The notes under the pieces were generated by a model, which did not search any database, was not told where the DNA came from, and saw nothing but the letters and a program-made list of their open reading frames with translations. Of a DNA stretch of 60,937 nucleotides, positions 5,636 through 26,686 are shown piece after piece (the first letter of the stretch is position 1; each line of letters opens with the position of its first letter). Origin of the DNA: an uncultured Eubacteriales bacterium (GTDB lineage: Bacteria; Bacillota; Clostridia; Christensenellales; CAG-138); the NCBI GenBank assembly GCA_900319345.1, contig ONNZ01000007.1, positions 1-60,937 of the forward strand. The letters run 5' to 3'. Both the position numbers and the translations under genes were made by a program.

Positions 5636-5648
5636 GGTTTTCCTCCTG

Positions 5649-8648: not shown

Positions 8649-8677
8649 AGTATAGTTTTTTCTGGCCGCTTTGTCAA
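8649..8677 (-). promoter_or_regulatory. Promoter of the AOR 2-moa operon
   Basis: On the minus strand TTGACA (8672-8677) and TATACT (8649-8654) are separated by 17 bases, a near-consensus sigma-A promoter about 46 bases before the AOR 2 start. It is divergent from the moeB promoter. Confidence 0.85.
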
Positions 8678-8741
8678 ACGCCCCGCGCCTCCTTCGCGCC
8701 CGTTCCGTCGGGGAAGAAGGGCGCTTTTTTCGTCCCCACGG

Positions 8742-8771
8742 TTGACAAGGGAAACGGATGGGTCATATACT
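8742..8771 (+). promoter_or_regulatory. Promoter of the moeB-moeA operon
   Basis: TTGACA (8742-8747), 18-base spacer, TATACT (8766-8771), 33 bases before the moeB-like ATG. A terminator-like GCGCCC/GGGCGC hairpin plus six T (about 8696-8730) lies just upstream, possibly insulating the two divergent promoters. Confidence 0.85.
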
Positions 8772-8804
8772 TTTTTATAACGAAAGAATCGAAGGAGGAC
8801 GGCC

Positions 8805-9485: not shown

Positions 9486-9495
9486 GGAGGCGCCT

Positions 9496-12643: not shown

Positions 12644-13958
12644 CGTGGCGGTGATCGGCGGCGGCGTCCTGGGATGCTTCGCCGCACGAAACCTGACAAG
12701 ATTTCGGCTGGACGTGGTCCTCATCGAGGCGGCGGAGGACCTGTGCACCGGCGTCACCCGGGCCAACTCCGCCGTGGTGTACCCGGGCTGCGACAACCGT
12801 CCCGGGAGCATGAAGGCCGCCCTGACGGTGCGGGCTAACGCCTCCTTCGATCGCCTGTGCGGGGAGCTGGAGGTGCCCTTCTCCCGCTGCGGGAGCCTGA
12901 TGACGGCCTATGGCCCCCAGGGCGAGGCCGTCCTGCGAAAGAAGCTGGACCAGGGCCAGAAAAACGGCGTGCCGGGGCTTCGGCTCCTGTCCGGCGACGA
13001 GGCCCGGGACAGGGAGCCCATGCTCTCCCGGGCGGTCAGCGCTGCCCTGTGGGCCCCCACCACCGGCACCGTGAATCCCTGGCAGCTGGGCATCGCCGCC
13101 TTCGAGAGCGCCAAGGCGAACGGCTGTGAAACCATGCTCCGCGCCCCGGTGGTCTCCATAGCCAAGGCGGAGGGCCTCTATCGCATCGAAACGACCCGGG
13201 GGGAAGTCGCCGCCCGGGCTGTGGTGAACTGCGGCGGTCTCTATGCGGTGCAAATCCAGGAATTGATCTATCCGTCACCGGTCCGGCTTCGGCTGGACGG
13301 GGCGGATTTTTTGGTATTCGACCCCCTGACGCTCCGGCCCGGCCACATCCTCTTCGAGGAGACGGAGGCGGGGAAGGGCGTCACGGCGGTGCCCTGCCCG
13401 GAGGGGAACCTGCTGCTGGATTCGCCGCCCCGGCCCTATGAGCCCCACTTCGCCACCACCCGGGAGGGCCTGGACACCATCCGAGCCCACGGGGTCCGGC
13501 TGCTGCCCGATCTGGACTTCGGGGCCGTGATCCGCTCCTTCGGCGGCGTTCGGCCCAACCCGGAGGGAGTGGACGGCCGGGACATCCGGGATTTCTGCAT
13601 CCAGCGGCCCGCCCCCACCTTCTGGAGCCTGGTGGGCGTCAAGACCCCGGGGCTCACCTGCGCCAACGAGTTGGGGGCCCTCGTGGCCGGGGAATGCGCG
13701 GCAGTCCTGGGCGCGGAGAGAAACGAAGCTTTTCGCCCGGAGCGACGGGCCATCCATCCGGCCCCGGGTTCGCCCCTCGTCTGCCGCTGCGAGGGCGTGA
13801 GCCGAGACGCGGTCATCGAGGCCATCCGCCGGGGCGCCGTCACCGTGGACGGGGTCAAGCGCCGGGTAGGCGCCGGCATGGGCCGGTGCCAGGGCGCCCG
13901 TTGCGCCTACGAGATCGAACAGCTGTTGAAGGAGTGCGTCCATGGCGGAACGGTATGA
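12630..13958 (+). CDS. FAD-dependent oxidoreductase, GlpA-like, with C-terminal [2Fe-2S] BFD-type domain
   Basis: The 442-residue protein begins with the FAD dinucleotide fold (VIGGGVLGCFAARNL, 8-22) of the DAO/anaerobic glycerol-3-phosphate dehydrogenase group. The C-terminal 55 residues form a BFD-like cluster domain with CRC, then MGRCQGARC. In glycerol-3-phosphate operons the family is followed by a flavin disulfide-reductase-like subunit, as here (17-base overlap). Embedding in a tungsten island suggests it moves electrons between an AOR-linked metabolite and NAD(P) or ferredoxin rather than serving glycerol; that is inference. It resembles L-2-hydroxyglutarate oxidases too. Confidence 0.85.
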   Translation: MKTVDVAVIGGGVLGCFAARNLTRFRLDVVLIEAAEDLCTGVTRANSAVVYPGCDNRPGSMKAALTVRANASFDRLCGELEVPFSRCGSLMTAYGPQGEAVLRKKLDQGQKNGVPGLRLLSGDEARDREPMLSRAVSAALWAPTTGTVNPWQLGIAAFESAKANGCETMLRAPVVSIAKAEGLYRIETTRGEVAARAVVNCGGLYAVQIQELIYPSPVRLRLDGADFLVFDPLTLRPGHILFEETEAGKGVTAVPCPEGNLLLDSPPRPYEPHFATTREGLDTIRAHGVRLLPDLDFGAVIRSFGGVRPNPEGVDGRDIRDFCIQRPAPTFWSLVGVKTPGLTCANELGALVAGECAAVLGAERNEAFRPERRAIHPAPGSPLVCRCEGVSRDAVIEAIRRGAVTVDGVKRRVGAGMGRCQGARCAYEIEQLLKECVHGGTV

Positions 13959-14787
13959 CGTGCTGATCGTAGGCGGCGGCGGAGCGGGCGTCGCCGCGGC
14001 CAAGGCCCTGTGGGCGGCGGGCTGCCGGTCAGCGGCCCTGGTGGAGGAGAAGCCCTGTTTGGGCGGCATCCTTCGCCAATGCGTCCATCCCGGCTTCGGC
14101 CCCGGCCTGGACGGCCGAGCCTACGCCGCCGGCCTGCTGCAGGATTTCCCGCCGGAGTTCCCCTGCTATTTGGGAGCCACCGTCACCGCCCTGGAGCCGG
14201 ATCGGACCGCCGTGCTCTTCGACGGCAGGGAGATCGGCTTCCGCGTGTTGATCCTGGCCACCGGCTGCCGGGAGATCCCCTTTGGCGCCCTCCACGTGGT
14301 GGGGACCCGGCCTCGGGGCGTCTTTACGGCGGGGCAGATGCAGGAGATGATCAACTGCCACGGCTTTGTGCCCCGGGGGCCCGCGGTCATCCTGGGCAGC
14401 GGCGACATCGGCCTCGTCATGGCCTGGCAGCTGCTTCGGCTGGATCTCTCCGTCACCCTGGTGGAGCAGGCGGATCGGATGACGGGCCTCCTGCAAAACC
14501 AGGAGCGGCTGGCGGGGCTGCCCCTTCGGTTCGTTCCCGACGCCACCGTTCGGGAGATCCAGGGGTTCCCGGACCTTACGGGCGTGGTCCTGTCCGACGG
14601 GCAGACGGTCCCCTGCCGGACCCTGCTGTCGGCCGTGGGTTTGAAGCCGGAACGGGAGCTGCTGCCCGCGGGCGTGCCGGAGTGGGCCGTGCTGGCGGGG
14701 AACTGCAGCCGCATCCATCCCCGGATCGAAAGCGTGCTGAGGGAGGGGGAGCAGGCGGCGGGCCAGGCCCTGATGAAACTCCGCTGA
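13942..14787 (+). CDS. Compact FAD/NAD(P)-binding oxidoreductase
   Basis: A two-dinucleotide-fold flavoprotein: FAD site IVGGGGAGVAAA near 9-20 and NAD(P) site ILGSGDIGLVMAW near 151-163, with QCVHPGFG between. At 281 residues it is well shorter than the roughly 420-residue partners usually found beside GlpA-like proteins in Clostridia. The frame is clean and ends naturally, so it is probably a compact version rather than a broken gene. The third, DUF1667-type cysteine-rich subunit usual in such operons is absent. It overlaps the preceding FAD gene. Confidence 0.85.
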   Translation: MAERYDVLIVGGGGAGVAAAKALWAAGCRSAALVEEKPCLGGILRQCVHPGFGPGLDGRAYAAGLLQDFPPEFPCYLGATVTALEPDRTAVLFDGREIGFRVLILATGCREIPFGALHVVGTRPRGVFTAGQMQEMINCHGFVPRGPAVILGSGDIGLVMAWQLLRLDLSVTLVEQADRMTGLLQNQERLAGLPLRFVPDATVREIQGFPDLTGVVLSDGQTVPCRTLLSAVGLKPERELLPAGVPEWAVLAGNCSRIHPRIESVLREGEQAAGQALMKLR

Positions 14788-14803
14788 ATATGGGCTTTCA
14801 CTG

Positions 14804-14832
14804 TTTACTTTCTCCTTTCAAAATGATATATT
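14804..14832 (+). promoter_or_regulatory. Candidate promoter of AOR 3
   Basis: TTTACT (14804-14809), 17 bases, TATATT (14827-14832), 34 bases before the AOR 3 ATG. The stretch is conspicuously AT-rich for this region. Confidence 0.6.
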
Positions 14833-14865
14833 GTTAGCAGATAACGACCTCATGGGAGGTAGCGC

Positions 14866-16794
14866 ATGGCGACGAGATTCGGCGGATATATGGGCCGGGT
14901 GGTCCTGGTGGACCTGACCAGCCAAACCGTGGCGGAGTACCCCTGGACCGACGAGGACAGGGAGAAGTACATCGGCGGCAAGATCATGGCTGCCAAGGTT
15001 TTGAGCGACCATCTGACCGGCCAGGAGCAGCCCTTCTCGGAGGAGAACTGGATCGTGGTCTCCACGGGCCCCCTGACGGGCACGGGCGCGCCCTCCTCGG
15101 GCCGGTTCGATCTCTCCTGCATCTCCCCCCAGACAGGGATCCTCACCTCTTCCAACTGCGGCGGCAGCTTCGGCTATCACTTGAAGAAGGCGGGCATCGA
15201 CGCCCTCATCCTGAAGGGCCGGTGTGAGAAGCATACCTGGCTGGAGATCGACAACGGCCGGTTCACCTTCCACGACGCGGACGAGGACGGGCTCTGGGGA
15301 TTGAAGGTCACCGAGGGCCAGGAGAAGCTGGAATCGCTCCTGGTGAAGCAGTGGGGCGCCCGGCGGGCCTTCGGTCAGCTGATGATCGGGCCCGGAGGCG
15401 AGAACCTGGTCCTCTACAGCGCCGTCCTCAGCGGCGAACGGGCGGCGGGCCGCACGGGCGTGGGCGCGGTGTTCGGCTGGAAGAACCTGAAGGCCATTGC
15501 CGCCACCGGTACCCACGAGATCCGGGTGGCCCATCCCGAAAAGAACGAAAAGTGGAACCAAAAGTGGTTCCAATACCTGCGCAAACACCCTCTCACCGGC
15601 AACCAGCTGCCCCGGATGGGCACGGCGGGCCTGGTCAGCGCCATGCAGATGCGGGGCATGCTGGCCACCAAGAATTACAGCGCCGGTCGGTACGACCAGT
15701 TCGAGCTGGTCAACGGCGAGACCCTGGCGGAGGAGCAGAACATCGTCAACAAGGGCTGCCTCACCTGCCCCATCAAGTGCGCCCGGACCGTGGACGTGAA
15801 GGGCCGGGAGGTGAAGGGGCCGGAGCTGGAGACGTTGGTCCTGCTGGGGGGCGGCATCTGCAACGACAATCTCGGAGACATCCTCCGCTGGAACAACGAG
15901 CTGGACGAGCTGGGCCTCGATACCATCTCCTGCGCCAGCACCATCGCCTATGCCATGGAGGCCAACGAGAAGGACCTCTGGGACAACGGGTTGAAGTTCG
16001 GAGAGACGGCGGGCTTAAGCCAGCTCTTCGAGGACATCGCCCATCGGCGGGGCATCGGGAACGAGCTCGCTGAGGGGAGCCGCCGCCTGTCGAAGAAATA
16101 CGGCGGGGCGGAGTTCGCCATCCAGTCCAAGGGGCTGGAGCTGGCGGCCTACGAGCCCCGGCGGGCCGTGGGCCAGGGCCTTGGGTACGCCGTCAGCAAC
16201 CGGGGCGGCTGCCACCTGAACGGCGGCTACCTGGTCATCTTGGAGGGCCTGGGCCTCTTCACCAACCCCCAGACGCCCCACGCCAAGGCGGACTTCACCA
16301 TGCTCTTTCAGGATCTGATGGAGATGATCTCCGCCACGGGTCAATGTTTGTTCACCTCCTACGGCTTCTTCCCGGGCTTCCTCATCACCCGGCCCAACGG
16401 CGTGGTGACCAAGATCGTCAACGGGGCCATCCCCTTCATCGGCTGGGCCCTGCGGTTCATGAACAAGTGCCCCCGGGCCCTGGCCCTTCATCTGCCCGTG
16501 TTCCAGCAGACGAAGGCCATGATCTACGCCGTGGGCATGAAGATGAACTTCGGCAAGTACATCCGCTGCGGCGAGCGGGGCTACACCCTGGATCGGTGGG
16601 TGTCCACCCGGTTCGGTATCCGCGCCAAGGACGATTCTCTGCCCAAGCGTCTAACGGACGTAGCCCAGGACCCCAAGGATCCCCGGACCAAGGTGCCCCT
16701 GGAGAAGATGAAGAAGACCTACTATCGGGCCCGGGGTTGGGACCAGGACGGGGTGCCCACGGAGCGGACGCTGAAGAAGCTGGGGATCCTGTGA
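14866..16794 (+). CDS. Aldehyde:ferredoxin oxidoreductase family tungstoenzyme (AOR 3)
   Basis: A 642-residue AOR-family enzyme. Pterin-domain features include YIGGKIMAAKVL and SNCGGSFGYH; the usual SPLTGG is replaced by SPQTGI. The cluster ligands are Cys298, Cys301 and Cys305 (CLTCPIKC), with a candidate fourth Cys in ATGQCLF near 491. The gene is followed by its own MoaD-like carrier and a polyferredoxin/iron-alcohol dehydrogenase, so the unit may interconvert an acid, aldehyde and alcohol (AOR plus ADH), a coupling known in acid-reducing anaerobes. GGGAGG precedes ATG 14866. Confidence 0.93.
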   Translation: MATRFGGYMGRVVLVDLTSQTVAEYPWTDEDREKYIGGKIMAAKVLSDHLTGQEQPFSEENWIVVSTGPLTGTGAPSSGRFDLSCISPQTGILTSSNCGGSFGYHLKKAGIDALILKGRCEKHTWLEIDNGRFTFHDADEDGLWGLKVTEGQEKLESLLVKQWGARRAFGQLMIGPGGENLVLYSAVLSGERAAGRTGVGAVFGWKNLKAIAATGTHEIRVAHPEKNEKWNQKWFQYLRKHPLTGNQLPRMGTAGLVSAMQMRGMLATKNYSAGRYDQFELVNGETLAEEQNIVNKGCLTCPIKCARTVDVKGREVKGPELETLVLLGGGICNDNLGDILRWNNELDELGLDTISCASTIAYAMEANEKDLWDNGLKFGETAGLSQLFEDIAHRRGIGNELAEGSRRLSKKYGGAEFAIQSKGLELAAYEPRRAVGQGLGYAVSNRGGCHLNGGYLVILEGLGLFTNPQTPHAKADFTMLFQDLMEMISATGQCLFTSYGFFPGFLITRPNGVVTKIVNGAIPFIGWALRFMNKCPRALALHLPVFQQTKAMIYAVGMKMNFGKYIRCGERGYTLDRWVSTRFGIRAKDDSLPKRLTDVAQDPKDPRTKVPLEKMKKTYYRARGWDQDGVPTERTLKKLGIL

Positions 16795-16807
16795 AGGAGG
16801 TGCGGAT

Positions 16808-17062
16808 ATGGTGCATGTGAAGCTGTTCGGCCTGCTGCGGCTGGACACGGGCCTCAAGGAGCTGAACGCCCAGGCCGCCACGGTGGGGGACCTGTACCCC
16901 ATCCTGCTGGTGGAGGCGAAGCGCGTGAAGCCGTCCACCACGGTCACCGCCAAGGACGTGGACGGATGCGTTATTTTGATCAACGGAAAGCAGGGCAAGA
17001 AGAGCAGCCGCCTGAAGGACGGGGACGAGGTTCTCCTCATGAGTCCGGTGTGCGGAGGGTAG
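16808..17062 (+). CDS. MoaD/ThiS-family sulfur carrier paired with AOR 3
   Basis: An 84-residue beta-grasp protein ending in CGG, following AOR 3 by 13 bases with a GAAGGAGG ribosome site. It is the third carrier in the window, each tied to one AOR. A GKQGKKSSRLKDGDEV stretch precedes the C-terminal strand, as in archaeal and clostridial AOR-linked MoaD proteins. Confidence 0.88.
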   Translation: MVHVKLFGLLRLDTGLKELNAQAATVGDLYPILLVEAKRVKPSTTVTAKDVDGCVILINGKQGKKSSRLKDGDEVLLMSPVCGG

Positions 17063-17066
17063 AGCT

Positions 17067-18737
17067 ATGGGCGCGTATTCCATCGATCCGGCAGCCTGCG
17101 TGGGCTGCACCCTGTGCGCTCGGAATTGCCCGGTGAAGGCCATCGCCGGCAAGGTAAAGGAGCCCCACGCCATCGACCCCTCCGTCTGCGTGGGCTGCGG
17201 CGCCTGCGGCCGCCTGTGCCCCAAGGGGGCCGTGCGAAACGACAGGGGGGAGCCGGTGCAGAAGGTCCCCAAGGCGGAATGGCCCAAGCCCGCGGTGAAC
17301 ACCGCCGCCTGCGCCGGGTGCAGCGTGTGCGTGGAGAACTGCCCCAAGGGGTGCCTGTCCATCACCAAGCCCAAGGAGCGGGGGGACATCCGCACCGTGG
17401 CCGCCCTCACGGACCCGGAAGGGTGTTTGGGCTGCGGCCTCTGCCAAAAGGCCTGTCCCATCGGCGCCATCGTTATGGTCAAGCCCGGCCAGCAGCCGGT
17501 TTTCACAGATACCACACAGCAAGGAGGCAAACATATGCTCAACCGTATTTGGTGCAGGGTGTTTCAGGGATGCATGAAGGTGGGGAACTACTTTTTGGGC
17601 TACCGGATGCCGGAGTACATCGAGGGCCCCGGCAGCATCGCCAAGCTCCCCCAGTTCATGAAGGAGAAGGGGGCCAGGAAGGCCCTGGTGGTGACGGACG
17701 CCAACTTGATGAAGCTGGGCCTGCTGGACAAGATGCTTTCCTCCCTGCAGGAAGCCGGGGTCCCCTACGCCCTGTTCTACGACATCGAGCGGAACCCCAC
17801 CAGCGACAACGTGGAGGCGGGGTACAAGGTCTATAAGGAACAAAACTGCGAATGTCTGGTGGCCTTCGGCGGCGGCGCGCCCATGGACTGCGCCAAGGGC
17901 ATCGCGGCTAAGAGCGTCCACCCCAAGAAGACCGTGGCCCAGCTCCAGGGCATTTTGAAGGTGCATCATAGGATCCCCCTGTTCTTCGCCGTCCCCACCA
18001 CGGCGGGCACCGGCTCCGAGACCACGGTGGCGGCGGTCATCACCGACTCGGCCACCCACCACAAGGCCTCCATCAACGACCCGGCCATCATCCCCAAGTA
18101 CGCCATTTTGGACCCGGAGCTGACCACGGGCCTGCCGCCCTTCGTCACCGCCACCACGGGCATGGACGCCCTCTGCCACGCGGTGGAGGCATACACCAAC
18201 CACACCTACAACACCAAGCTGGAGGATCGGCTCGCCAAGGAGGCGGTGAAGCTCATCCACGAGAACCTGCTGACCGCCTATGAGCACGGCGATGACCTCA
18301 CCGCCCGGCAGAACATGCAGCGGGCCTCCTTCTTCGCAGGCAGGGCCTTCACCCGGGGCTGCGTGGGCTACGTCCACGCCCTGGGCCACACCCTGGGGGG
18401 CCTCTACGGCACGCCCCACGGCTTGGCCATGAGCATCATCCTGCCCCACGTCATGCGGCAGTTCGGGCCCGCGGTCCACGAGAAGCTGGCGGACCTTGCA
18501 GACGTGTGCGGCATGGGCGGCGGCACCCCGGCGGAGAAGGCGGAGCGGTTCATCGCCTGGATCGAGGATATGAAGGTGAAGATGAACATCCCCGCCGGCG
18601 TGGACGTCATCGAGGATAAGGACGTGGAGCAGATCATCACCTGGGCCCTGAAGGAGGCCAACCCCCTCTATCCGGTGCCGGTGATCTGGGGCCGGGAGGA
18701 CATGAGAAAGCTCATCGCCACCGTCCGCAACGCCTGA
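17067..18737 (+). CDS. Polyferredoxin fused in frame to iron-type alcohol dehydrogenase
   Basis: Residues 1-145 hold four CxxCxxCxxxC [4Fe-4S] motifs (CVGCTLCARNC, CVGCGACGRLC, CAGCSVCVENC, CLGCGLCQKAC). Residues 157-556 are a complete group III iron-dependent alcohol dehydrogenase: GGGAPMDCAKG near 270, PTTAGTGSE, and the metal region DALCHAVEAY followed by HALGHTLGG. A consensus AAGGAGG at 17521-17527 sits 7 bases before an in-frame ATG at 17535, so a free 400-residue dehydrogenase is probably also made. The junction codons CAG CAA just before that site are each one base from a stop. Likely partner of AOR 3, reducing aldehyde to alcohol or the reverse. The long protein could alternatively reflect a recent stop loss. 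Confidence 0.85.
   Translation: MGAYSIDPAACVGCTLCARNCPVKAIAGKVKEPHAIDPSVCVGCGACGRLCPKGAVRNDRGEPVQKVPKAEWPKPAVNTAACAGCSVCVENCPKGCLSITKPKERGDIRTVAALTDPEGCLGCGLCQKACPIGAIVMVKPGQQPVFTDTTQQGGKHMLNRIWCRVFQGCMKVGNYFLGYRMPEYIEGPGSIAKLPQFMKEKGARKALVVTDANLMKLGLLDKMLSSLQEAGVPYALFYDIERNPTSDNVEAGYKVYKEQNCECLVAFGGGAPMDCAKGIAAKSVHPKKTVAQLQGILKVHHRIPLFFAVPTTAGTGSETTVAAVITDSATHHKASINDPAIIPKYAILDPELTTGLPPFVTATTGMDALCHAVEAYTNHTYNTKLEDRLAKEAVKLIHENLLTAYEHGDDLTARQNMQRASFFAGRAFTRGCVGYVHALGHTLGGLYGTPHGLAMSIILPHVMRQFGPAVHEKLADLADVCGMGGGTPAEKAERFIAWIEDMKVKMNIPAGVDVIEDKDVEQIITWALKEANPLYPVPVIWGREDMRKLIATVRNA
17521..17537 (+). promoter_or_regulatory. Internal ribosome site and start for stand-alone alcohol dehydrogenase
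   Basis: AAGGAGG (17521-17527), 7-base spacer, ATG (17535-17537), in frame within the ferredoxin-dehydrogenase fusion. The strength and spacing match the genuine starts of neighbouring genes. Confidence 0.72.
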
Positions 18738-18758
18738 TATTTCGACCTTTCGTGGAAA

Positions 18759-18787
18759 CAGGAGCGGCCCCGTCTGCTCCTGCTTTT
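18759..18787 (+). terminator. Terminator after the AOR 3 operon
   Basis: CAGGAGC (18759-18765) pairs with GCTCCTG (18776-18782), followed by CTTTT. It separates the dehydrogenase from the tup promoter. Confidence 0.6.
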
Positions 18788-18808
18788 CGTATCCCCGCCG
18801 AATCTCGA

Positions 18809-18836
18809 TTGACAACGGTCCCGGGTCGTGTATAAT
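18809..18836 (+). promoter_or_regulatory. Promoter of tupABC
   Basis: TTGACA (18809-18814), 16-base spacer, TATAAT (18831-18836): perfect hexamers. Predicted transcript start near 18843 leaves a leader of about 140 bases. Confidence 0.9.
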
Positions 18837-18963
18837 GGTATCGAAAATCAGCCGGGCCGGGAAGCCCCGTTGACGCATACCGTTTCGATACCGGTGGACG
18901 AGCCATATTCGAAGCCTGAACAGCCCTATGTACAGGGCTTTTTCGGCAAGGATATGGCTGATT
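18837..18963 (+). promoter_or_regulatory. Structured tupA leader with inverted repeats
   Basis: GGTATCGAAA (18837-18846), directly after the -10 box, is the exact inverse of TTTCGATACC (18883-18892). AATCAGCC (18846-18853) is the exact inverse of GGCTGATT (18956-18963), which would close a 110-base leader fold just before the ribosome site at 18971. Inside lies AGCCCT/AGGGCT (18922-18939) followed by five T, a terminator-like hairpin. Either a DNA operator, an attenuating RNA leader or both are possible. I do not recognise a known riboswitch class. Confidence 0.55.
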
Positions 18964-18983
18964 GTTTTATAGGAGGAAAGAAT

Positions 18984-20045
18984 ATGAAAAAGATCGTATC
19001 CCTGATGCTGGCCCTGCTCATGCTGGTGGCTCTGGGCGCCTGCGCCAAGAAAGCCCCCGAGGCCGAAGCCCCCAAGACCGAAGCGCCCAAGGCGGACGCC
19101 CCCAAGGCAGAGGCCCCCAAGGCCACCGACGCCCCGGCCGAACCGGCCAAGGCGGACAAGCTGGTGGTCAACACCGTCATCCTGAAGGAAGCTGACGACA
19201 GCATGAAGAACACCTACGCCGTCCTGGCCGTCAACGACAAGGCGCCCTTCGTGGACGCCGATGGCAAGGAAGTGAAGGACGTGGCGTTGAACACCGCGGG
19301 CGCGGACGCCCTCTACCAGTGGCTCAACAGCCAGGAGGCCCTGGATATGGCCGCCGCCTACGGCGTGGAGGAGTTCGGCGCCAACCTGTTCTACGTGCTG
19401 GAGGGCATCCAGCCCTATGCCGGCGAGATCGCTCCCGCCACCGAGGAGACCAAGACCATCCGCCTGTCCACCACCACCTCCGTCAAGGACTCCGGCCTTC
19501 TCGGCAAGCTCCTGCCCGTCTTCGAGGAGAAGTACGGCTACACCGTGGAAGTCTACTCCGCGGGCACCGGCAAATCCATCGCCAACGCCAAGATGGGCAA
19601 CGCGGACATCATCCTGGTTCACGCCAAGAAGCAGGAGGACGCCTTCGTGGCGGACGGCTTCGCCCGTGTGGTGGAGGGTTTCCAGGCCGAGCGCACCCCC
19701 TTCCTGTACAACTTCTTCGTGCTCTGCGGCCCCTCTGAAGACCCGGCCAAGGTAGCGGAGGCCGCCACCGTGCTGGATGCCTTCAAGGCCATCGCCGACG
19801 GCAAGTTCCTGTTCATCTCCCGGGGCGACAAGTCCGGCACCCATACCAAGGAGCTGGCCCTGTGGCCTGAGGAGCTGGGCATAACCGCCGAGGCCGATTC
19901 CTTCAAGGCCTATACCGACTGGTACATCTCCGCTAACGCGGGCATGGGCGCCTGCCTCGTTATGGCGGAGCAGCAGGGGGCCTATATCCTCACCGACAAG
20001 GCCACCTTCCTGAGCTTCGTCGCCAACGACGGCATCATCAAATAA
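18984..20045 (+). CDS. tupA: Tungstate-binding lipoprotein TupA, circularly permuted
   Basis: This is the extracellular binding protein of a TupABC tungstate importer. A lipoprotein signal (MKKIVSLMLALLMLVALGAC, Cys20) is followed by an Ala/Pro/Lys/Glu repeat linker to about 52. The TupA signature LSTTTSVKDSGLL begins only near residue 159, and FISRGDKSGTHTKE follows. The last 85-90 residues normally C-terminal in TupA are absent after ILTDKATFL; matching segments (ILKEADDSMKNTYAVLAVN, then ALYQWLNSQEALDMAA and LFYVLE) instead sit at about 57-133, ahead of the canonical start. ATG 18984 has AGGAGG 7 bases upstream; an earlier in-frame start would lie upstream of the -10 box. Confidence 0.9.
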   Translation: MKKIVSLMLALLMLVALGACAKKAPEAEAPKTEAPKADAPKAEAPKATDAPAEPAKADKLVVNTVILKEADDSMKNTYAVLAVNDKAPFVDADGKEVKDVALNTAGADALYQWLNSQEALDMAAAYGVEEFGANLFYVLEGIQPYAGEIAPATEETKTIRLSTTTSVKDSGLLGKLLPVFEEKYGYTVEVYSAGTGKSIANAKMGNADIILVHAKKQEDAFVADGFARVVEGFQAERTPFLYNFFVLCGPSEDPAKVAEAATVLDAFKAIADGKFLFISRGDKSGTHTKELALWPEELGITAEADSFKAYTDWYISANAGMGACLVMAEQQGAYILTDKATFLSFVANDGIIK

Positions 20046-20060
20046 GGAACGCAGACACCG

Positions 20061-20084
20061 GGCCCCGCGCTCCGGCGCGGGGCC
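20061..20084 (+). terminator. Strong hairpin between tupA and tupB
   Basis: GGCCCCGCGC (20061-20070) and GCGCGGGGCC (20075-20084) form a perfect 10-base-pair stem with a TCCG loop, followed only by TTT. It probably acts as a 3' stabiliser or partial terminator that lets more binding protein than permease be made, as in many ABC importer operons. Confidence 0.65.
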
Positions 20085-20102
20085 TTTAGAAAGGGCCGCC
20101 CC

Positions 20103-20789
20103 ATGAAATCCTCCCTGATCCAGGCCATACAGCTGATCCTGTCCGGCAACGCGGAGCTGATGAACATCCTGAAGGTCACCGCCCGCATGAGCCTGACCAG
20201 CTCCTTGTGCGCGCTGTTGATCGGTGTGCCCATCGGCATATGGCTGGGCTCCCGCCGCTTCTGGGGCCGGGACGCCCTGGTGGTGATCAACCGGACCCTC
20301 ATGGGCACCCCGCCCGTGGTCTGCGGGCTCCTCTTCTACCTGCTGTTTTCGGGGGTGGGGCCCTTCCGGCATTTGAAGCTCCTGTTCACGGTGAAGATCA
20401 TGATCCTGGCCCAGGTGGCCCTCATCACCCCCATCGTGGTGGGGAACATGGAGACCTATACCGCCTCCGTGGCCCCCGGGGTCATGGAGACCGCCAAGGG
20501 CATGGGCTTCCCCCGCTGGAAGACCTTCCTGCTGCTGGGGAACGAGTGCGTCTATCCCATCTTCTCCGCCTACCTGCTGGCCTTCTCTCGGGCCATCGCC
20601 GAGGTGGGGGCCGTGTCCATGGTGGGCGGGGCCATCGCCTGGAAGACCAACGTCATGACCACGGCCATCATGCAGTACACCAACCAGGGCAACTTCAGCC
20701 TGGGCATCGCCCTGGGCCTCATCCTGATGACGGCGTCCCTGATCGTGAACACCGTGCTGACCCTGCTTCAAAAGAGGCTTTCCCAATGA
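20103..20789 (+). CDS. tupB: Tungstate ABC transporter permease TupB
   Basis: A 228-residue inner-membrane permease with about five or six hydrophobic segments. The EAA-type loop region (VMETAKGMGFPRWKTFLL, about 124-141) marks contact with the ATPase. The AEVGAVSMVGG stretch is typical of TupB/ModB. Between tupA and tupC in one operon, overlapping tupC by 4 bases. Confidence 0.92.
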   Translation: MKSSLIQAIQLILSGNAELMNILKVTARMSLTSSLCALLIGVPIGIWLGSRRFWGRDALVVINRTLMGTPPVVCGLLFYLLFSGVGPFRHLKLLFTVKIMILAQVALITPIVVGNMETYTASVAPGVMETAKGMGFPRWKTFLLLGNECVYPIFSAYLLAFSRAIAEVGAVSMVGGAIAWKTNVMTTAIMQYTNQGNFSLGIALGLILMTASLIVNTVLTLLQKRLSQ

Positions 20790-21451
20790 AGATCGCCGCG
20801 TTCACAAAGACATACGGGAAGAAGATGGTGCTGCGCTTCCCCGCCTGCGAGCTTCCCCAGGGGAGGATCGTGGCGGTGATCGGCGCCAACGGCAGCGGCA
20901 AGTCCACCTTGGCCAAGGTCCTCTCGGGCATCGAGCCCTCGGACCAGCGGGTGCGGCCCCTCATGGGCGTCAGCCTGGGGTATCTGCCCCAGAAGAGCTA
21001 CGGGTTCCACATGAGCCTGCGGGCGAACCTGCTCCTGAACGGCGGAGACAAAGCCCTGGCCGCCCGGCGCATGGACGCCTTAAAGATCCGGGATCTGGAA
21101 AAGGCCCGGGCCGATCGGCTCTCCGGCGGGGAGACGGCCCGCATGGCCCTGGCCCGGCTGTTGATGCGGCCATACGACCTGGTGATTCTGGACGAGCCCA
21201 CCGCCGCCATGGATCGAGAGAGCACCCTCCTGGCGGAGCAGCTGGTAAAGGATTACGTGAGGGAGACGGGCTGCACGATGTTGCTGGTGACCCACAGCCT
21301 CCAGCAGGCCCGCCGCATGGCCCAGGAGGTCCTGTTCCTGTACAATGGGACCTTGGTGGAGCGGGGGCCTATCGCCCAGGTTCTCCATCGTCCGGAGCGG
21401 GAGGAGACCCGCCAGTTCCTGGAATTCTACGGCTTCGCCCCGGAGGCCTGA
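20786..21451 (+). CDS. tupC: Tungstate ABC transporter ATP-binding protein TupC
   Basis: A 221-residue ATPase: Walker A GANGSGKST (32-40), signature LSGGETARMALARL, Walker B LVILDEPTAAMD and H-loop LLVTHS. It lacks the C-terminal TOBE/mop domain found in ModC, as expected for TupC. ATG 20786 overlaps the tupB stop (ATGA); the frame is open further upstream inside tupB but has no credible start there. Confidence 0.93.
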   Translation: MKIAAFTKTYGKKMVLRFPACELPQGRIVAVIGANGSGKSTLAKVLSGIEPSDQRVRPLMGVSLGYLPQKSYGFHMSLRANLLLNGGDKALAARRMDALKIRDLEKARADRLSGGETARMALARLLMRPYDLVILDEPTAAMDRESTLLAEQLVKDYVRETGCTMLLVTHSLQQARRMAQEVLFLYNGTLVERGPIAQVLHRPEREETRQFLEFYGFAPEA

Positions 21452-21543: not shown

Positions 21544-21586
21544 TTGACAAACCACCCCGTAGGATTTATTATGAATGTGTTCATAA
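21544..21586 (+). promoter_or_regulatory. Promoter and palindromic operator of the TetR operon
   Basis: TTGACA (21544-21549), 17 bases, TATTAT (21567-21572). A perfect palindrome TTATGAATGTGTTCATAA (21569-21586) overlaps the -10 box, the expected place for repression by the TetR protein encoded 14 bases downstream. Confidence 0.85.
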
Positions 21587-21599
21587 AAGAGGGACGAAC

Positions 21600-22142
21600 A
21601 TGCCTAAGATCATCGAAGATGTGGAGAACAGGATCCTCTGCGCGGCCCGCCAACGGCTGCTGGGGGGAGACCTGTCCTCTTTTTCTGCCCGGGGCATCGC
21701 GGAGGACTGCGGCATCGCCGTGGGCACCATCTACAACTACTATCGGGACAAGGAGAGCATCATGGCGGCCGTCATGGCCCAGGACTGGCAGGCGGAGCTC
21801 ACGAAGGCGGGGGAGAGGATCGACGCCGTCCCCAGCATCGAGGAGGGCGTCCGCTGCCTCTACGAGGCCATGCGCTCCTTCAGCCGGGTCTACGAATCCG
21901 TGTGGGCCTCCTATCCCACGGGGGAGGGCTTCGGAAGCCTGTTTCGGACCCGGCACCGGCAGCTCCTCTCTCAGATCGAGGCGCAGCTCTCCGCCCTCTA
22001 TGCCCGCTTCGGCCCTGTGCCGGAGAAGGGGCAGCGCATCCTGTTGTCCGAGCTCATCCTGGCCGCCAGCCAGCATCCCGAGGTGGGGCCGGAGGACCTT
22101 ATTTCATGTATCCGCGGGGGCGTGGGCTCCCGCACCCTATAA
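21600..22142 (+). CDS. TetR/AcrR-family regulator
   Basis: A 180-residue one-component repressor. The N-terminal helix-turn-helix region (SARGIAEDCGIAVGTIYNYYRDKES, about 35-59) is a textbook TetR pattern; the remaining helices form a ligand-binding domain of unknown specificity. It is the first gene of an operon of flavin, SDR and membrane reductases and most likely autoregulates through the palindrome over its -10 box. It probably senses the hydrophobic substrate of those enzymes. Confidence 0.93.
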   Translation: MPKIIEDVENRILCAARQRLLGGDLSSFSARGIAEDCGIAVGTIYNYYRDKESIMAAVMAQDWQAELTKAGERIDAVPSIEEGVRCLYEAMRSFSRVYESVWASYPTGEGFGSLFRTRHRQLLSQIEAQLSALYARFGPVPEKGQRILLSELILAASQHPEVGPEDLISCIRGGVGSRTL

Positions 22143-22169
22143 TCAGCAAACAAGGAGGAAAACAAGCGA

Positions 22170-23105
22170 ATGTCCACATTCCAGGAGCTGCGAATCGTCG
22201 ATAACTTCTATCAAACGTCCCTGTTCTATCCCATGCCGGCGGTGCTGGTGAGCACCCTCACCGACGACGGGAAGACCACCTGCGGGCCCTACTCCCTGCT
22301 CTCGCCCTTCTACGTGGCGGGGAAGCCCTACTACGCCTTCATGCTGGAGTGCCGCAACTCCTCCAACACCGCCCAGAACCTGATCAAGCACAAGAAGTGC
22401 GTCATCAACTTCCTGCCGGACGACCGCAAGTCCTTCAAGGAGATGGTCCGCCTGGGCTGGCCCGGGGACACCCCCGCCGAGAAGATGAACGACTTCCGCT
22501 TCCACCTGGAGGACGGCCTTCGCAAGGCCGAGGACCCGGAGGGCACCTATCCCCAGGTCATCACCGAGGCGGTCCAGGCTGTGGAGTGCACCTGGGTGGA
22601 CACGTTGGACAACGCCCAGGACGACACGCCCATCCCCGAGGGCATGGACCACTACGAGCTTCCCAAGTATCACGACTTCAACGGCATCACCACCCCCTAC
22701 GGCGCCCACTTCGTGCTGAAAATCGACAAGATCCTCATGAAGGAGCAGTACCGGAACGCCATCATCAACGGCGTCAAGTCCTGGGATTTCCCGCACCTGC
22801 CCGTGGACTACGGCTATCGGGATTCCAAGAACTTCTGGTACCACAAGCACCGGAGGCTCCTCCCTGAGCTCCTGCCCCAGCGCCAGACCACCGTGGCCAG
22901 CGTCCGCTACGCCGCCGACCGGCTCCAGACCGAGGTCCAGTTCACGGACGCGGCTCTCGAGAAGCTGGTGAAGGTGCCCCGGGTGTTCCTGCCCACGGCC
23001 CTCAAGGGCTGCGTCAAGTGGGCCGAGGAGAACGGCGTGAAGGTCATCGACGTGAAGGAGATGGAGATCATCAACGACAAGAGATCGAAAGAAAAGGGGA
23101 AATAA
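22170..23105 (+). CDS. Flavin-reductase-like split-barrel protein
   Basis: A 311-residue cytoplasmic protein. The N-terminal half (MPAVLVSTLTDDGKTTCGPYSLLSPF, then ECRNSSNTAQNL and CVINFLP) matches the FMN-binding split barrel of the flavin reductase-like family, although it is longer than typical 160-200-residue members because of an additional C-terminal half. Such proteins bind FMN and reduce flavin or small substrates. It starts 11 bases after AAGGAGG and is followed after 3 bases by another split-barrel gene. Substrate unknown. Confidence 0.78.
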   Translation: MSTFQELRIVDNFYQTSLFYPMPAVLVSTLTDDGKTTCGPYSLLSPFYVAGKPYYAFMLECRNSSNTAQNLIKHKKCVINFLPDDRKSFKEMVRLGWPGDTPAEKMNDFRFHLEDGLRKAEDPEGTYPQVITEAVQAVECTWVDTLDNAQDDTPIPEGMDHYELPKYHDFNGITTPYGAHFVLKIDKILMKEQYRNAIINGVKSWDFPHLPVDYGYRDSKNFWYHKHRRLLPELLPQRQTTVASVRYAADRLQTEVQFTDAALEKLVKVPRVFLPTALKGCVKWAEENGVKVIDVKEMEIINDKRSKEKGK

Positions 23106-23108
23106 GCC

Positions 23109-23630
23109 ATGAGCGAATTCGTACCGGATTTCCACCATTTCCAGAACTTCTGGATCGAGCAGCAGAAAACGGCTAAGCACATGGATCGGGATGCGGCCTG
23201 GGCCCACATCGAGGGCTTCATCAAGGCTCACAATACCTGCGGCTTCGCCACGGGTTACGGCGACTACATCCGCTGCACCCCCATCGAGTACACCTACATG
23301 GATGGCTGCTTCTGGTTCGTCAGCGAGGGCGGCAGCAAGTTCATCGGCCTCGAAAAGAACCGGAACGTGGGCATGGCCATCTTCGAGTACTACGGCAACC
23401 CCAAGGACTCCCACGGCCTGCAGATCATGGGCAAGGCGGAGTTCTACAGCAACACCTCCGACGAGTTCAAGAAGCTCTTGGCCTTCAAGGGCATCCCCTA
23501 CGACGTGTTGAAGGCCGCCGCGGTGGAGGTGGCCGTGGTCCGGGTGGTGCCCTACCGGTTTGAGATGTACGACACCGACTTCGTGAAGCAGGGCTACGAC
23601 GTGCGCCAGATCGTGGACAAGGAGATATGA
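23109..23630 (+). CDS. Pyridoxamine-5'-phosphate-oxidase-like flavoprotein
   Basis: A 173-residue member of the PNPOx-like split-barrel superfamily, recognisable from CTPIEYTYMDGCFWFVSEGGSKF (about 55-77), then NRNVGMAIFEY and the IMGKAEFY strand. The superfamily includes FMN or F420 enzymes and heme/bilin-acting members such as HugZ, so the name alone does not fix the reaction. It sits between a flavin-reductase-like gene and a bilin-reductase-like gene. Confidence 0.82.
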   Translation: MSEFVPDFHHFQNFWIEQQKTAKHMDRDAAWAHIEGFIKAHNTCGFATGYGDYIRCTPIEYTYMDGCFWFVSEGGSKFIGLEKNRNVGMAIFEYYGNPKDSHGLQIMGKAEFYSNTSDEFKKLLAFKGIPYDVLKAAAVEVAVVRVVPYRFEMYDTDFVKQGYDVRQIVDKEI

Positions 23631-23632
23631 AT

Positions 23633-24289
23633 ATGAAGCTGGATCATTCCGATAGGCTCCTGGCCCAACTTAACGAGCTCTTCGACCTGACTCTCTGCCC
23701 GCCCTCGGAGTACGAGACCTTCCAGATGGTGGGCCTGGACTTCAAGGCCCAGGGCTACGAGTCGGCGAAGCTGGGCCACGTGTCCGTGCAGACCGCCTCC
23801 GGCATGGGCGGCGCCATGGAGATGGAGTCCATGATCGTGAACCCCTTCTCCGTGGACGGGCCCCTGTTCTCCCTGGACCTCATTTCGGCCCAGGGAAAAT
23901 ACACCCTGATGATGGAGCTCTACGACACCCTGGTGGACACCCCCCGGGACGAGGCGCCCTTCCAGGCCATCAAGGACAGGTACGCCCACATCATGGACAT
24001 CCCCCACAAGCCCAACTGGTACGACGACATCCAGTACCACGCTTCCTGTGCCAAGCTGGCCACCCCGGAGCAGGCGGAGGACCTCTCTAAGCTCATCATG
24101 ACCTACGGCCAGCGGTACGTGGAGCTGTTGAAGGACGCCGCCCCCTGCGACGTGCAGCGCAAGCGGGTGAAGGCCGACGCCTATCGGGACGGCCTGTTGA
24201 GCCACGGCGGCCCCGCCACCGACGCCTTCCTCAAGTTCTGGGGCCCGGAGAAGACCGGGAAGCTGTTTACGGAAGTACTTTTTGGATAA
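23633..24289 (+). CDS. Protein resembling ferredoxin-dependent bilin reductases
   Basis: A 218-residue soluble protein I cannot name firmly. By eye its layout follows the phycocyanobilin:ferredoxin reductase/HY2 family: a central GPLFSLDLIS segment aligns with LPLFGCDIV of PcyA, keeping the catalytic-type Asp (Asp82 here), and the C-terminus FWGPEKTGKLFTEVLFG aligns with the PcyA FGEAWAERYMSQVLF tail. The PcyA His88 position is not conserved. These enzymes reduce biliverdin-type tetrapyrroles with ferredoxin. The second ATG is preferred because AAGGAG lies 8 bases upstream of it. Remote homology judged by eye only. Confidence 0.45.
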   Translation: MKLDHSDRLLAQLNELFDLTLCPPSEYETFQMVGLDFKAQGYESAKLGHVSVQTASGMGGAMEMESMIVNPFSVDGPLFSLDLISAQGKYTLMMELYDTLVDTPRDEAPFQAIKDRYAHIMDIPHKPNWYDDIQYHASCAKLATPEQAEDLSKLIMTYGQRYVELLKDAAPCDVQRKRVKADAYRDGLLSHGGPATDAFLKFWGPEKTGKLFTEVLFG

Positions 24290-24322
24290 AGAAAAAGCAA
24301 ATACATCAAGGAGGAAAGAAGT

Positions 24323-25186
24323 ATGAAGGTATTATTGGCAGGAGCCTTCGGCAACCTGGGCTTCGAGATCCTGAAGGTTTTGACTGACAAGGGCTGCGAG
24401 GTCGTGGCCGCCGACTTGAAGGAGCGTCCCGACAATGGTCTCGAGGGCAAGTACACCTTCCAGGCCATCGACGCCACCAACCCCGAGACCCTGAAGGGCA
24501 TCTGCGACGGGGTCGATGTGGTCATCACCACCATGGGCCTCACCACTGCGTCCACCAAATTCACGTCCTACGACATCGACTACCACGGCAACCTGAACCT
24601 GTACAACGAGGCCAAGACCGCCGGCGTCAAGAAGTTCAACTACATCTCCGTCATCGCCTGCGACCAGCCCGGCGCCGAGAAGGTGCCCATGCTCCACGCC
24701 AAGTTCATGCTGGAGAACGAGATCAAGAAGGGCGACATGGAGTACGTGATCTACCGGCCCACGGGCTACTTCTACGACATCGCCAAGGTGTTCAAGCCCT
24801 ACGTGGACAAGGGCGAGATGCAGCTCCTCAAGGGCTATCACGGTGTGAAGGCCAACGTGGTGGACTGCCCCGACTTCGCCAAGTTCATCTACGACCACAT
24901 GCTGGACACCAACAAGCTCTACGAGGTGGGCGGCAAGGAGACCTACACCTACGAGGAGATGGCCAAGATGTGCTTCCGCGCCGCCGGCAAGCCCTGCGTC
25001 ATCAAGGACAGCCCCATCTGGATGTTCGGGCTGCTCGCCAACCTCCCCGCCATCAAGAAGGCCGGCAAGCACGACATCATCCTCTTCTCCAAGTGGACGC
25101 TGTCCCATGACCTGGTGGGCAAGGACGAGACCGGCGAAGGCTCCTTCGCGGAATACATCAAAGAATACTTTGGGAGGAAAGAATGA
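24323..25186 (+). CDS. Atypical SDR, NmrA/divinyl-reductase-like
   Basis: A 287-residue NAD(P)-binding protein with GAFGNLG at 7-13. The pattern YDIDYHGNLNLYNEAKTAGV, then NYISVIA, HAKFMLE and VIYRPTGYFYDI matches atypical extended SDRs, among which the closest pattern I recognise is the 8-vinyl reductase (BciA/DVR) group with its YSIVRPTAFFK motif. No classical YxxxK is seen. It starts after AAGGAGG and overlaps the next gene by 4 bases. Inferred role: NAD(P)H reduction of a C=C or C=O bond in the operon's substrate. Confidence 0.75.
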   Translation: MKVLLAGAFGNLGFEILKVLTDKGCEVVAADLKERPDNGLEGKYTFQAIDATNPETLKGICDGVDVVITTMGLTTASTKFTSYDIDYHGNLNLYNEAKTAGVKKFNYISVIACDQPGAEKVPMLHAKFMLENEIKKGDMEYVIYRPTGYFYDIAKVFKPYVDKGEMQLLKGYHGVKANVVDCPDFAKFIYDHMLDTNKLYEVGGKETYTYEEMAKMCFRAAGKPCVIKDSPIWMFGLLANLPAIKKAGKHDIILFSKWTLSHDLVGKDETGEGSFAEYIKEYFGRKE

Positions 25187-26013
25187 TGTTTACGCTGATC
25201 CCTGAATACATCGGCCAGGTGTGGCCCCTGTTCATGTGGGGCGTCATCATCGTGGCGGCCATCGGCTGCTGCATGGGCTTCAAGGAGTTCGTCTGGTTCA
25301 TGTCCGTGGGCTACGGCTTCGCGGTCATGTGCATCGGCGCCTACCTGCTGATCCTGGGCCTCATCAAGGGGTATCTGACCCCCGCCCGGGGCATCATGGC
25401 GGGCCTGTTCGTGATCTACGGCTACCGGCTGGGGGGCTACATCCTGAAGCGGGAGCTGACCAACGCCGCCTATAAGAAGACGCTGGAGAGCACCGGCTCT
25501 GCCAAGGCCATGCCCATCCCCGTGTCGGCTTTCATGTGGGTCTACTCCATGTTCATGTACACCGCCCAGACCTCCGCCCTGACCTATCGGTTCATCAACC
25601 AGGCCAAGGACAACGTGTGGGTGTGGATCGGCATCGTCATCATGGCCCTGGCCATCATCGGCGAAGCCACCGCCGATCGGCAGAAGTCCGCCGCCAAGAA
25701 GGTGAACCCCAAGCGGTTCTGCGACACGGGCCTCTATAAGTTCGTCCGCTGCCCCAACTACTTCTCCGAGGTCATGTTCTGGGTGGGCGTCACCGTGTCC
25801 GGCATCGGCGCCGTCCAGGGCAAGCAGTGGATCATCGTCCTTATCGCCCTGGCCCTCATCACCTACGTCATGTACAATTCGGCCAGCCGTCTGGAGCTCC
25901 GCCACGAGAAGACCTACGGTCTGGACCCCGAGTACCAGAAGTACTCCGACACGGTCCCCCTGCTCTTCCCCTTCACCAAGCAGTTCCACTCCATGAAGGT
26001 GTACCGGGACTAA
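25183..26013 (+). CDS. DUF1295/steroid 5-alpha-reductase-like membrane protein
   Basis: A 276-residue integral membrane protein with about seven hydrophobic segments. The C-terminal GLYKFVRCPNYFSEVMFWVGV (about 184-204) is the hallmark of the DUF1295/3-oxo-5-alpha-steroid 4-dehydrogenase and ICMT-like superfamily, which reduce or methylate lipophilic substrates. ATGA overlap with the upstream SDR implies coupled expression. Confidence 0.82.
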   Translation: MMFTLIPEYIGQVWPLFMWGVIIVAAIGCCMGFKEFVWFMSVGYGFAVMCIGAYLLILGLIKGYLTPARGIMAGLFVIYGYRLGGYILKRELTNAAYKKTLESTGSAKAMPIPVSAFMWVYSMFMYTAQTSALTYRFINQAKDNVWVWIGIVIMALAIIGEATADRQKSAAKKVNPKRFCDTGLYKFVRCPNYFSEVMFWVGVTVSGIGAVQGKQWIIVLIALALITYVMYNSASRLELRHEKTYGLDPEYQKYSDTVPLLFPFTKQFHSMKVYRD

Positions 26014-26041
26014 GGATCGCAAGCGATAAGGAGGTACCAAG

Positions 26042-26635
26042 ATGACCGTCTCCATGGCGTTGATGGACTTCGTGCCGGTGCTGCTCTTCGGAGCGGCCTG
26101 GCTGATCCTCTATAAGGATCTAAAGAACAAGCTGGACCTTTGCTCCGGCGTGCTGCTGCCCTTGGGGGCCGGGTTGGTGTTCCTGGCCGGGTTCCTAAAG
26201 GCCACCTGGAAGATGCAGAAGGCCTTGGGCGTCCCCGCGGTGGAGCTGTTCAATAAGATGATGTTCCCCACCCAGTCCGTGGGCTTCCTGCTCATGGCGG
26301 TGGGCATGCTGGCCCTCATGTACGGCCAGCGCAAGAGCGCCCGGTCCCTGACCATGGTCTGGGTCATGCTGACGGTCCTGGGGAACCTGGGCGCGTCGGC
26401 GGGCCTGGTGTGGATCGCCAGCAAGGTGAAGAAGGCCGCCGTGCCTCTGTTCATCGTGGCGTTCGTGTGCTCCATGATGATGGGCTACCTCTCCAGCCGC
26501 GACTTCGACCAGGCCTCCATGCACTGGATCGCCCAGAGCGTCAACACCCTGGGCCAGGCCCTGCTGCTCGTCGGCGCGCTGCTGGTCCACAAGGCGGGCC
26601 TTTCCGCCCCCGACGCCCTCAACAAGAAGGCATAA
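26042..26635 (+). CDS. Small polytopic membrane protein, unknown
   Basis: A 197-residue protein with about six predicted membrane segments and a basic C-terminus. I do not recognise the family. AAGGAGG precedes the ATG and it is the last gene of the TetR operon, so it may be an accessory subunit or carrier for the DUF1295-like enzyme. Confidence 0.75.
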   Translation: MTVSMALMDFVPVLLFGAAWLILYKDLKNKLDLCSGVLLPLGAGLVFLAGFLKATWKMQKALGVPAVELFNKMMFPTQSVGFLLMAVGMLALMYGQRKSARSLTMVWVMLTVLGNLGASAGLVWIASKVKKAAVPLFIVAFVCSMMMGYLSSRDFDQASMHWIAQSVNTLGQALLLVGALLVHKAGLSAPDALNKKA

Positions 26636-26642
26636 GAAACCC

Positions 26643-26686
26643 AAGAACGAAAAGGACGCCCCGGAAGGGGCGTCCTTTTCGTTCTT
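26643..26686. terminator. Bidirectional terminator
   Basis: A perfect 20-base inverted repeat (26643-26662 and 26667-26686, loop GGAA) with A- and T-rich flanks serves the TetR operon and the convergent phosphoesterase gene, whose stop codon overlaps it at 26685. Confidence 0.95.

Follow-up and report, generated by a model that had tools for sequence, protein, structure and literature searches.

Contig ONNZ01000007.1 of an uncultured Eubacteriales bacterium (assembly GCA_900319345.1) was analyzed over its positions 1 to 60,937, and this whole stretch of 60,937 bases is called the window here. At 21544-26686 on its plus strand lies a single compact operon of seven genes. It runs from the gene for a TetR-family regulator to the gene for a membrane protein, TM197 (our own label), and includes a gene whose product resembles the ferredoxin-dependent bilin reductases (FDBRs). 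The six proteins named in a first-pass annotation of this DNA, together with the TetR protein, are all encoded by intact plus-strand open reading frames, with intergenic gaps of -4 to 33 bases. Four-base overlaps join the PNPOx gene to the FDBR-like gene and the gene for a short-chain dehydrogenase/reductase (SDR) to the DUF1295 gene.

The TetR-family regulator (21600..22142, 180 aa) matched TetR_N (PF00440) with 30.7 bits (cut-off 24, E 2.8e-7). The next gene, which we call FlvR, encodes a flavin-reductase-like split-barrel protein (22170..23105, 311 aa). Its match to Flavin_Reduct (PF01613) was below the cut-off (22.4 bits for 27, E 1.5e-4), and all four family members matched this model, the best with 1.4e-7. 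A PNPOx-family split-barrel protein follows (23109..23630, 173 aa), for which PNPOx_N (PF01243) was the sole family above its cut-off (30.7 bits for 28.1, E 4.7e-7); PDB sequences gave nothing at E<=1. Among the loci read, this gene was confined to the genus of the window. The two split-barrel proteins had been tied to HugZ, but Pfam, by which alone this was judged, gave no specific link, and the assignment was dropped.

Downstream of the FDBR-like gene (23627..24289, 220 aa), the atypical, NmrA-type SDR (24323..25186, 287 aa) matched NmrA (PF05368) with 44.4 bits (cut-off 27, E 2.2e-11) and showed 56-78% identity to seven other aligned SDRs. Its proposed resemblance to 8-vinyl reductases is not specific. 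Only generic NmrA and NAD(P)-binding SDR families were found with Pfam and NCBIfam, and the best 60 of 68 PDB matches included triphenylmethane reductase, SimC7 and NDUFA9 and none called a vinyl reductase. The specific BciA assignment was given up on these generic matches, no BciA sequence having been compared. The next product (25183..26013, 276 aa) is a DUF1295 or steroid-reductase-like membrane enzyme, which like the steroid 5-alpha-reductase-like family passes the cut-offs of both DUF1295 (PF06966; 97.2 bits for 20.4, E 1.3e-27) and Steroid_dh (PF02544; 26.8 bits for 22.6, E 5.8e-6). Its gene adjoined the SDR gene wherever a locus had both. TM197 (26042..26635, 197 aa) has five or six hydrophobic segments and is conserved across nine aligned loci; it reached no Pfam family cut-off, and its nine members shared no consistent Pfam family.

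A sigma-70-type promoter, TTGACA-17-TATTAT, is predicted at 21544..21572 on the plus strand and matches the consensus at 11 of 12 positions. Over its -10 element lies a perfect palindrome, the predicted TetR-type operator TTATGAA-TGTG-TTCATAA (21569..21586); the putative TetR target sequence is TTATGAATGTGTTCATAA. A promoter scan of 5.6 kb gave one match against a shuffle mean of 1.2, which is not beyond chance, but the place of this match and the perfect palindrome over its -10 make the call more credible. At the other end, a terminator-like 20-bp hairpin (26643..26686, scored on the minus strand) separates the operon from a metallophosphoesterase gene that converges on it. Terminator-like sites were found beyond chance (nine, for a shuffle mean of 3.8).

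The operator is conserved. Its arms were present 5' of the TetR gene in 11 of 11 loci with a located TetR start, the window included, and also in a Butyrivibrio locus described below; L208, L021, L047, L048 and L019, in which the script did not locate the TetR start, were left out of the comparison. The arm consensus across loci is ATGAAC-nn-GTTCAT, with variants at L049 (a weaker half), L204 (one base changed) and L205 (a 3-base spacer). The exact core, TATGAAYNNRTTCATA, occurred as one copy each in six of eight genomes searched, always at this cluster, and the other two (G012 and G338) had copies with one mismatch at the cluster. The reversed control had zero matches in the same search. When up to two mismatches were allowed in 35 sequences, 16 extra matches lay off TetR promoters, for about nine expected from mononucleotide shuffles, and none of the 16 was directly upstream of an FDBR-like gene. 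On these counts, the TetR protein looks dedicated to this operon.

By profile comparison, the 23627-24289 product is a protein of the FDBR superfamily, homologous over its full length, in a clostridial genome. The protein matched Fe_bilin_red (PF05996) with 17.8 bits (E 0.0028; 16.7 bits in a search of its own genome), and its single match among PDB sequences under E 10 was the bilin reductase GtPEBB (6qwq, E 0.0092). Relatives were gathered from genome samples of the order and the class, and 24 of them were aligned. Fourteen of these matched Fe_bilin_red (best 9.9e-8), and six matched the NCBIfam model for 15,16-dihydrobiliverdin:ferredoxin oxidoreductase (best 1.2e-9). With hhalign, the clostridial profile aligned collinearly over 203 columns with that of 31 phage FDBRs (probability 91.5%, P 8.6e-7), while 100 column shuffles gave at most 2.3% and the reversed profile 0.1%. 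A PDB search with the profile returned nine entries under E 10, five of them FDBRs. In a tree, the 24 clostridial sequences were split from eight phage FDBRs with support of 100/99; pre-PcyA, red chlorophyll catabolite reductase (RCCR) and coproporphyrinogen oxidase sequences were not among its rows, so the tree does not set the position of the clostridial branch. Viral contigs searched for FDBR-like and for SDR relatives gave nothing useful.

The central catalytic aspartate of FDBRs, Asp99 of GtPEBB and Asp105 of PcyA (PMC6755814, PMC10151467), corresponds to D84 in the window protein and is D in 24 of 24 relatives. As had been noted from the sequence before, this Asp is retained and His88 of PcyA is not: S68 aligns with His88, and this column has T in 17 and S in seven of the 24. 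The column of PcyA Glu76 has M in 19, L in three, Q in one and I in one, so that both of these PcyA residues are missing from the clostridial relatives. The second catalytic Asp (Asp219 of GtPEBB, Asp206 of PebS) is present in 26 of 31 phage FDBRs, and its column holds G in 20 and N in four of the 24 relatives. In brief, the clostridial protein shares with FDBRs (PcyA, PebA, PebB, PebS, PcyX and HY2; PF05996) full-length collinear homology, the invariant central Asp and a similar C-terminal region ending in LF. It differs in its sub-cut-off Pfam score, in these other catalytic positions, in its clostridial hosts and in that none of the seven operon genes encodes a haem oxygenase.

The pre-PcyA proteins described by Rockwell et al. 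in 2023 (PMC10151467) are likewise FDBR relatives in non-photosynthetic bacteria, and pre-2 and pre-3 keep Asp105. According to the same source, pre-3 has Thr at the His88 position, as 17 of the 24 clostridial relatives do (the window protein has Ser), and activity was shown for one enzyme from each of the pre-PcyA lineages. Pre-PcyA clusters typically hold a haem oxygenase, bilin-binding globins, and V4R and Fe-S proteins or a B12-binding protein (PMC10151467). The clostridial operon instead combines its FDBR-like gene with SDR, DUF1295, split-barrel and TetR genes, and Pfam found no haem oxygenase, bilin-binding globin, V4R/Fe-S or B12-binding match among its seven genes.

AlphaFold with the single sequence gave no usable model (mean pLDDT 40, pTM 0.25). 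Given an alignment of the window protein, its copy in the sibling genome RUG13181 and 21 phage FDBRs, it gave a model with pLDDT 71.6 and pTM 0.76. In a Foldseek search of the PDB with this model, 34 of 37 matches at E<=0.001 were FDBRs, the best being PcyA (E 2.8e-10, TM up to 0.77). The other three were two chains of chloroplast motor complexes and a coproporphyrinogen oxidase; further oxidases followed lower down, and RCCR structures were absent from the best 50 rows. Because the input alignment contained FDBRs, the result is partly circular and indicates compatibility with the FDBR fold only. A fold unrelated to FDBRs, which would have spoken against the first-pass annotation, was thus not seen, in the sole confident model and with that circularity.

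Conservation of the gene set, which the earlier annotation had proposed to examine, was found in several families. In 11 genomes, which represent eight families, the FDBR-like gene had one or more of the other operon genes as neighbours (the window's, RUG13181, G214, G077, G012, G011, G640, G694, G609, G692 and G264; G numbers are our genome labels). RUG13181, a metagenome-assembled genome (MAG), has a near-identical operon with an FDBR-like protein of 97% identity, and in G061 and G081 a divergent FDBR-like copy stands beside TM197. For co-occurrence, the two draws of each sample were taken as the same genomes because their size and labels agreed. In the order sample (n=396), 10 genomes had the FDBR-like gene by a single-protein search, 12 had the SDR (E<=1e-40) and nine had both (Fisher 3.6e-15, or 1.1e-13 with the window genome left out). 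The class sample (n=391) gave 13, five and five (1.7e-8, or 5.2e-7 with the window genome left out), the 13 including G562 with a marginal match of 47 residues. These P values overstate independence, as the genomes are related. Any FDBR-like match was present in nine of 12 genomes of the genus, that of G771 covering only 41 residues, and in a phylum-wide draw one of 299 genomes, the window's own, had the gene. No characterised pathway was found in the orthologue context.

Where the substrate might come from was addressed through haem degradation in 21 genomes with an FDBR-like gene, the set being drawn without G562 and five further genus members. Haem oxygenase (PF01126, E<=0.001) was not found in 19 of the 21, including the window genome, which is 90% complete; in the other two it was unlinked. 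The radical SAM haem-opening enzyme HutW/ChuW was found above cut-off in none of the 21, and sub-cut-off matches in all 21 were taken for HemN/HemW-type relatives. Because haem oxygenase and HutW/ChuW are mostly lacking in this way, the substrate is probably imported. The tetrapyrroles of the rumen are mainly plant chlorophyll products. RUG13181 belongs by its name to a series of cattle-rumen MAGs (PMC6785717). Together with a review that credits gut bacteria with the breakdown of chlorophyll to phytoporphyrin (PMC3907879), this weakly favours a chlorophyll-type substrate over a bile-type one for the window genome.

We propose that the operon encodes a reductive pathway induced by its substrate, an unsaturated compound taken up from outside and probably a tetrapyrrole derived from chlorophyll or bile, and we give this a rough probability of 0.43. 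The repression, electron donor, order of steps and substrate class in what follows are those that we infer. The TetR repressor would silence the operon at the conserved operator until it is released by the substrate. TM197 and the DUF1295 protein may hold the exogenous compound at the membrane, where the operon products would saturate its double bonds. For this, NAD(P)H would serve the SDR and the DUF1295 enzyme, and flavin mononucleotide the split-barrel proteins. Reduced ferredoxin would supply the FDBR-like protein with electrons for two-electron reductions of a tetrapyrrole in its pocket, with D84 donating protons. The likeliest substrate would be a tetrapyrrole not made by the cell itself, for example a phyllobilin or chlorophyll-derived pigment of plant feed, or else a bile pigment. 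The presence of an FDBR relative in a co-regulated reductase operon, as the first-pass annotation had it, stands; a tetrapyrrole is a plausible candidate for its substrate.

Several results weigh against this pathway or against the FDBR assignment. Some concern the FDBR-like protein itself. The window protein stays below the Pfam gathering score for an FDBR proper (17.8 against 31 bits), has Gly in place of the second catalytic Asp of PebB and PebS, and reached only E 1 with an HMM (hidden Markov model) built from phage FDBRs alone, to which two of the 24 relatives matched below E 1e-4. The four non-FDBR entries of the PDB profile search were two of polybromo-1 (best E 0.029), a ribosomal protein and a designed protein. 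Pfam matched Slowpoke_C to five of the 24 relatives (best 8e-4) and gave single chance matches among them, including one to a toxin helical-domain model (0.0016).

Other results concern the module. The constant part of the operon does not include the FDBR-like gene, as a core of TetR, SDR, DUF1295 and the membrane protein also exists without it. For example, TetR, FlvR, SDR, DUF1295 and TM197 genes occur without it in G142, G338 and G198. These genomes (95, 95 and 85% complete) had no FDBR-like gene genome-wide, and the contig of G198 ends just after TM197. In G061, G081, G139 and G314, the SDR cluster lacks the gene, which is located elsewhere without the operator. Plasmid pNP243 of Butyrivibrio fibrisolvens D1, a cultured bovine-rumen strain, carries a TetR-SDR-DUF1295-TM197-like cluster with the same operator (L221, 7439-10277), its SDR having 53% identity. 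The 16.9 kb of pNP243 read in six frames contained no FDBR-like gene, the D1 chromosome not having been searched, and tblastn against a plasmid collection found no FDBR-like or FlvR relatives.

The main rival substrate class is a steroid or terpenoid, which we consider doubtful. A steroid, sterol, triterpenoid or isoprenoid lipid would be reduced by the DUF1295 protein as an enone reductase and by the SDR as a hydroxysteroid-type dehydrogenase, with the FDBR-like protein recruited to a non-tetrapyrrole substrate or used for binding only. Besides the core without the FDBR-like gene, this explanation can draw on the above-cut-off matches to DUF1295, Steroid_dh and, for the SDR, 3Beta_HSD (29.8 bits for 22). 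The single PDB match of the DUF1295 profile under E 0.01 was 7c83, a 3-oxo-5-alpha-steroid 4-dehydrogenase (E 4e-4, best over 32 positions). These families are generic, however, and the SDR matched NmrA, NAD_binding_10 and Epimerase better than 3Beta_HSD. A strongly co-occurring FDBR relative with the catalytic Asp would also be left unexplained.

The FDBR-fold chains of the motor complexes bear on the same question. FDBR, RCCR and coproporphyrinogen oxidase are the enzyme families of this fold, and all bind tetrapyrroles (PMC13193486). The Orf2971-FtsHi and Ycf2-FtsHi chains (8xks_P and 8xqw_H, ranks 7 and 12) matched our model about as well as bilin reductases did. By this structural comparison, the fold may extend beyond tetrapyrrole enzymes, and a non-enzymatic use of it is possible. 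We therefore weighted the tetrapyrrole pathway slightly down and recruitment in steroid reduction slightly up.

A special case of the tetrapyrrole pathway would be the reduction of host bile pigments by a route other than BilR/BilV, in which the FDBR-like protein would reduce biliverdin directly; we regard this as unlikely. FDBRs do act on biliverdin, but bile does not enter the rumen, the source of RUG13181 by its name. BilR is an Old Yellow Enzyme-family protein, and Pfam found none of that family among the operon's seven products, BilR elsewhere in the genomes not having been searched. Herbivores excrete both biliverdin and bilirubin (PMC13252198), which speaks for this case. The gut bilirubin reductases BilR/BilV (PMC10769871, PMC13252198) share with our working hypothesis a reductive tetrapyrrole chemistry carried out by gut bacteria; they differ in that BilV is an Old Yellow Enzyme-family protein (PMC13252198).

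In its most specific form, the tetrapyrrole pathway would be an oxygen-independent chlorophyll-catabolite pathway of rumen and hindgut Clostridia, with an enzyme of the FDBR/RCCR type, an SDR that reduces vinyl or enone groups and a reductase in the membrane. Together they would convert dietary chlorophyll derivatives toward phytoporphyrin (phylloerythrin) or reduced phyllobilins. This form is rather improbable. Conversion of chlorophyll to phytoporphyrin by gut bacteria is reported in a review (PMC3907879). If true, this form would mean a deep FDBR branch in hosts not known as photosynthetic and mostly without haem oxygenase.

Endogenous haem turnover, in which the FDBR-like protein would process cell-made bilins or anaerobilin, is very unlikely. 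The typical haem oxygenase of pre-PcyA clusters (PMC10151467) makes it conceivable, but endogenous haem was rejected as the substrate source on the haem oxygenase (19 of 21 genomes without it) and HutW/ChuW (none of 21 above cut-off) results in genomes that include the window's, which is 90% complete. Least credible is a chance or convergent similarity of an unrelated small alpha/beta protein to FDBRs: the sub-cut-off Pfam score, the single-sequence pLDDT of 40 and the E of 1 with the phage-only HMM would allow it, but it was rejected by the collinear, full-length, shuffle-controlled profile match, beside which stand the 9.9e-8 of the best relative, the invariant Asp and the shared C-terminal motif.

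Other FDBR-like genes and the surroundings of the operon showed further features. The window's own genome has a second, divergent FDBR-like paralogue on contig C17 (L018, 7927-8562), downstream of a hydrolase gene. This hydrolase was considered and rejected as evidence on the substrate: its L028 orthologue is mainly like platelet-activating factor acetylhydrolase, and its chlorophyllase match (24.3 against 26 bits) is too weak. At L055, the SDR and FDBR-like genes are followed by one for a [4Fe-4S] protein that matches flavodoxin weakly, under the cut-off; we count this neighbour in favour of the proposed pathway. Other FDBR-like subgroups occur on their own or, in five of six large genomes, beside genes for two similar FAD-type oxidoreductases (L050, L051, L052, L054 and L056, not L053, G634 being the exception; Pfam was run on the L050 pair only).

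Directly upstream of the operon, a cluster at 1824-21451 carries genes for a ferredoxin, for Mo/W-cofactor synthesis and for an ABC transporter, perhaps for tungstate, with a PBP-like binding protein. It includes three aldehyde:ferredoxin oxidoreductase genes (1824-3806, 6837-8603 and 14866-16794); in RUG13181 this cluster does not adjoin the operon. Between one of these genes and the transporter, 17067-18737 encodes an iron-containing alcohol dehydrogenase whose N-terminus carries a fused multi-[4Fe-4S] ferredoxin region; the enzyme may be wired to ferredoxin.

The observation behind the first-pass annotation is real and surprising, and both the family and the key residues had been named correctly; the tetrapyrrole pathway is a good but unproven proposal. 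Photosynthetic organisms and their phages are known to have FDBRs, as are some heterotrophs, where a haem oxygenase typically supplies the bilin. We found this gene set undescribed among the matches listed for pre-PcyA, for clostridial or gut FDBRs, for bilin reductases of anaerobes and for gut bilirubin reductases. In their accessible portions, the main texts of PMC10151467 and PMC13193486 do not mention Clostridia, Firmicutes or Bacillota, although clostridial sequences could stand in their supplementary trees.

The operon suggests an undescribed route by which gut microbes reduce pigments from chlorophyll or bile breakdown. If its substrate is chlorophyll-derived, its genes would be candidates for the formation of phytoporphyrin in the gut. 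Phytoporphyrin is the pigment of hepatogenous photosensitisation in livestock, and reviews, PMC3907879 among them, credit its formation to gut bacteria or digestion and, in the portions available, name no enzymes. If the substrates are bile pigments, gut bilirubin metabolism would gain a second class of enzymes. With the core module present in a cultured rumen strain, the hypothesis can be tested. The known relatives of the FDBR fold have been argued to be all ultimately dependent on oxygen (PMC10151467). A conserved FDBR-like gene of Clostridia, inherited together with a regulated reductase operon and carried by genomes of which most lack haem oxygenase, bears on this view and on how the fold arose.

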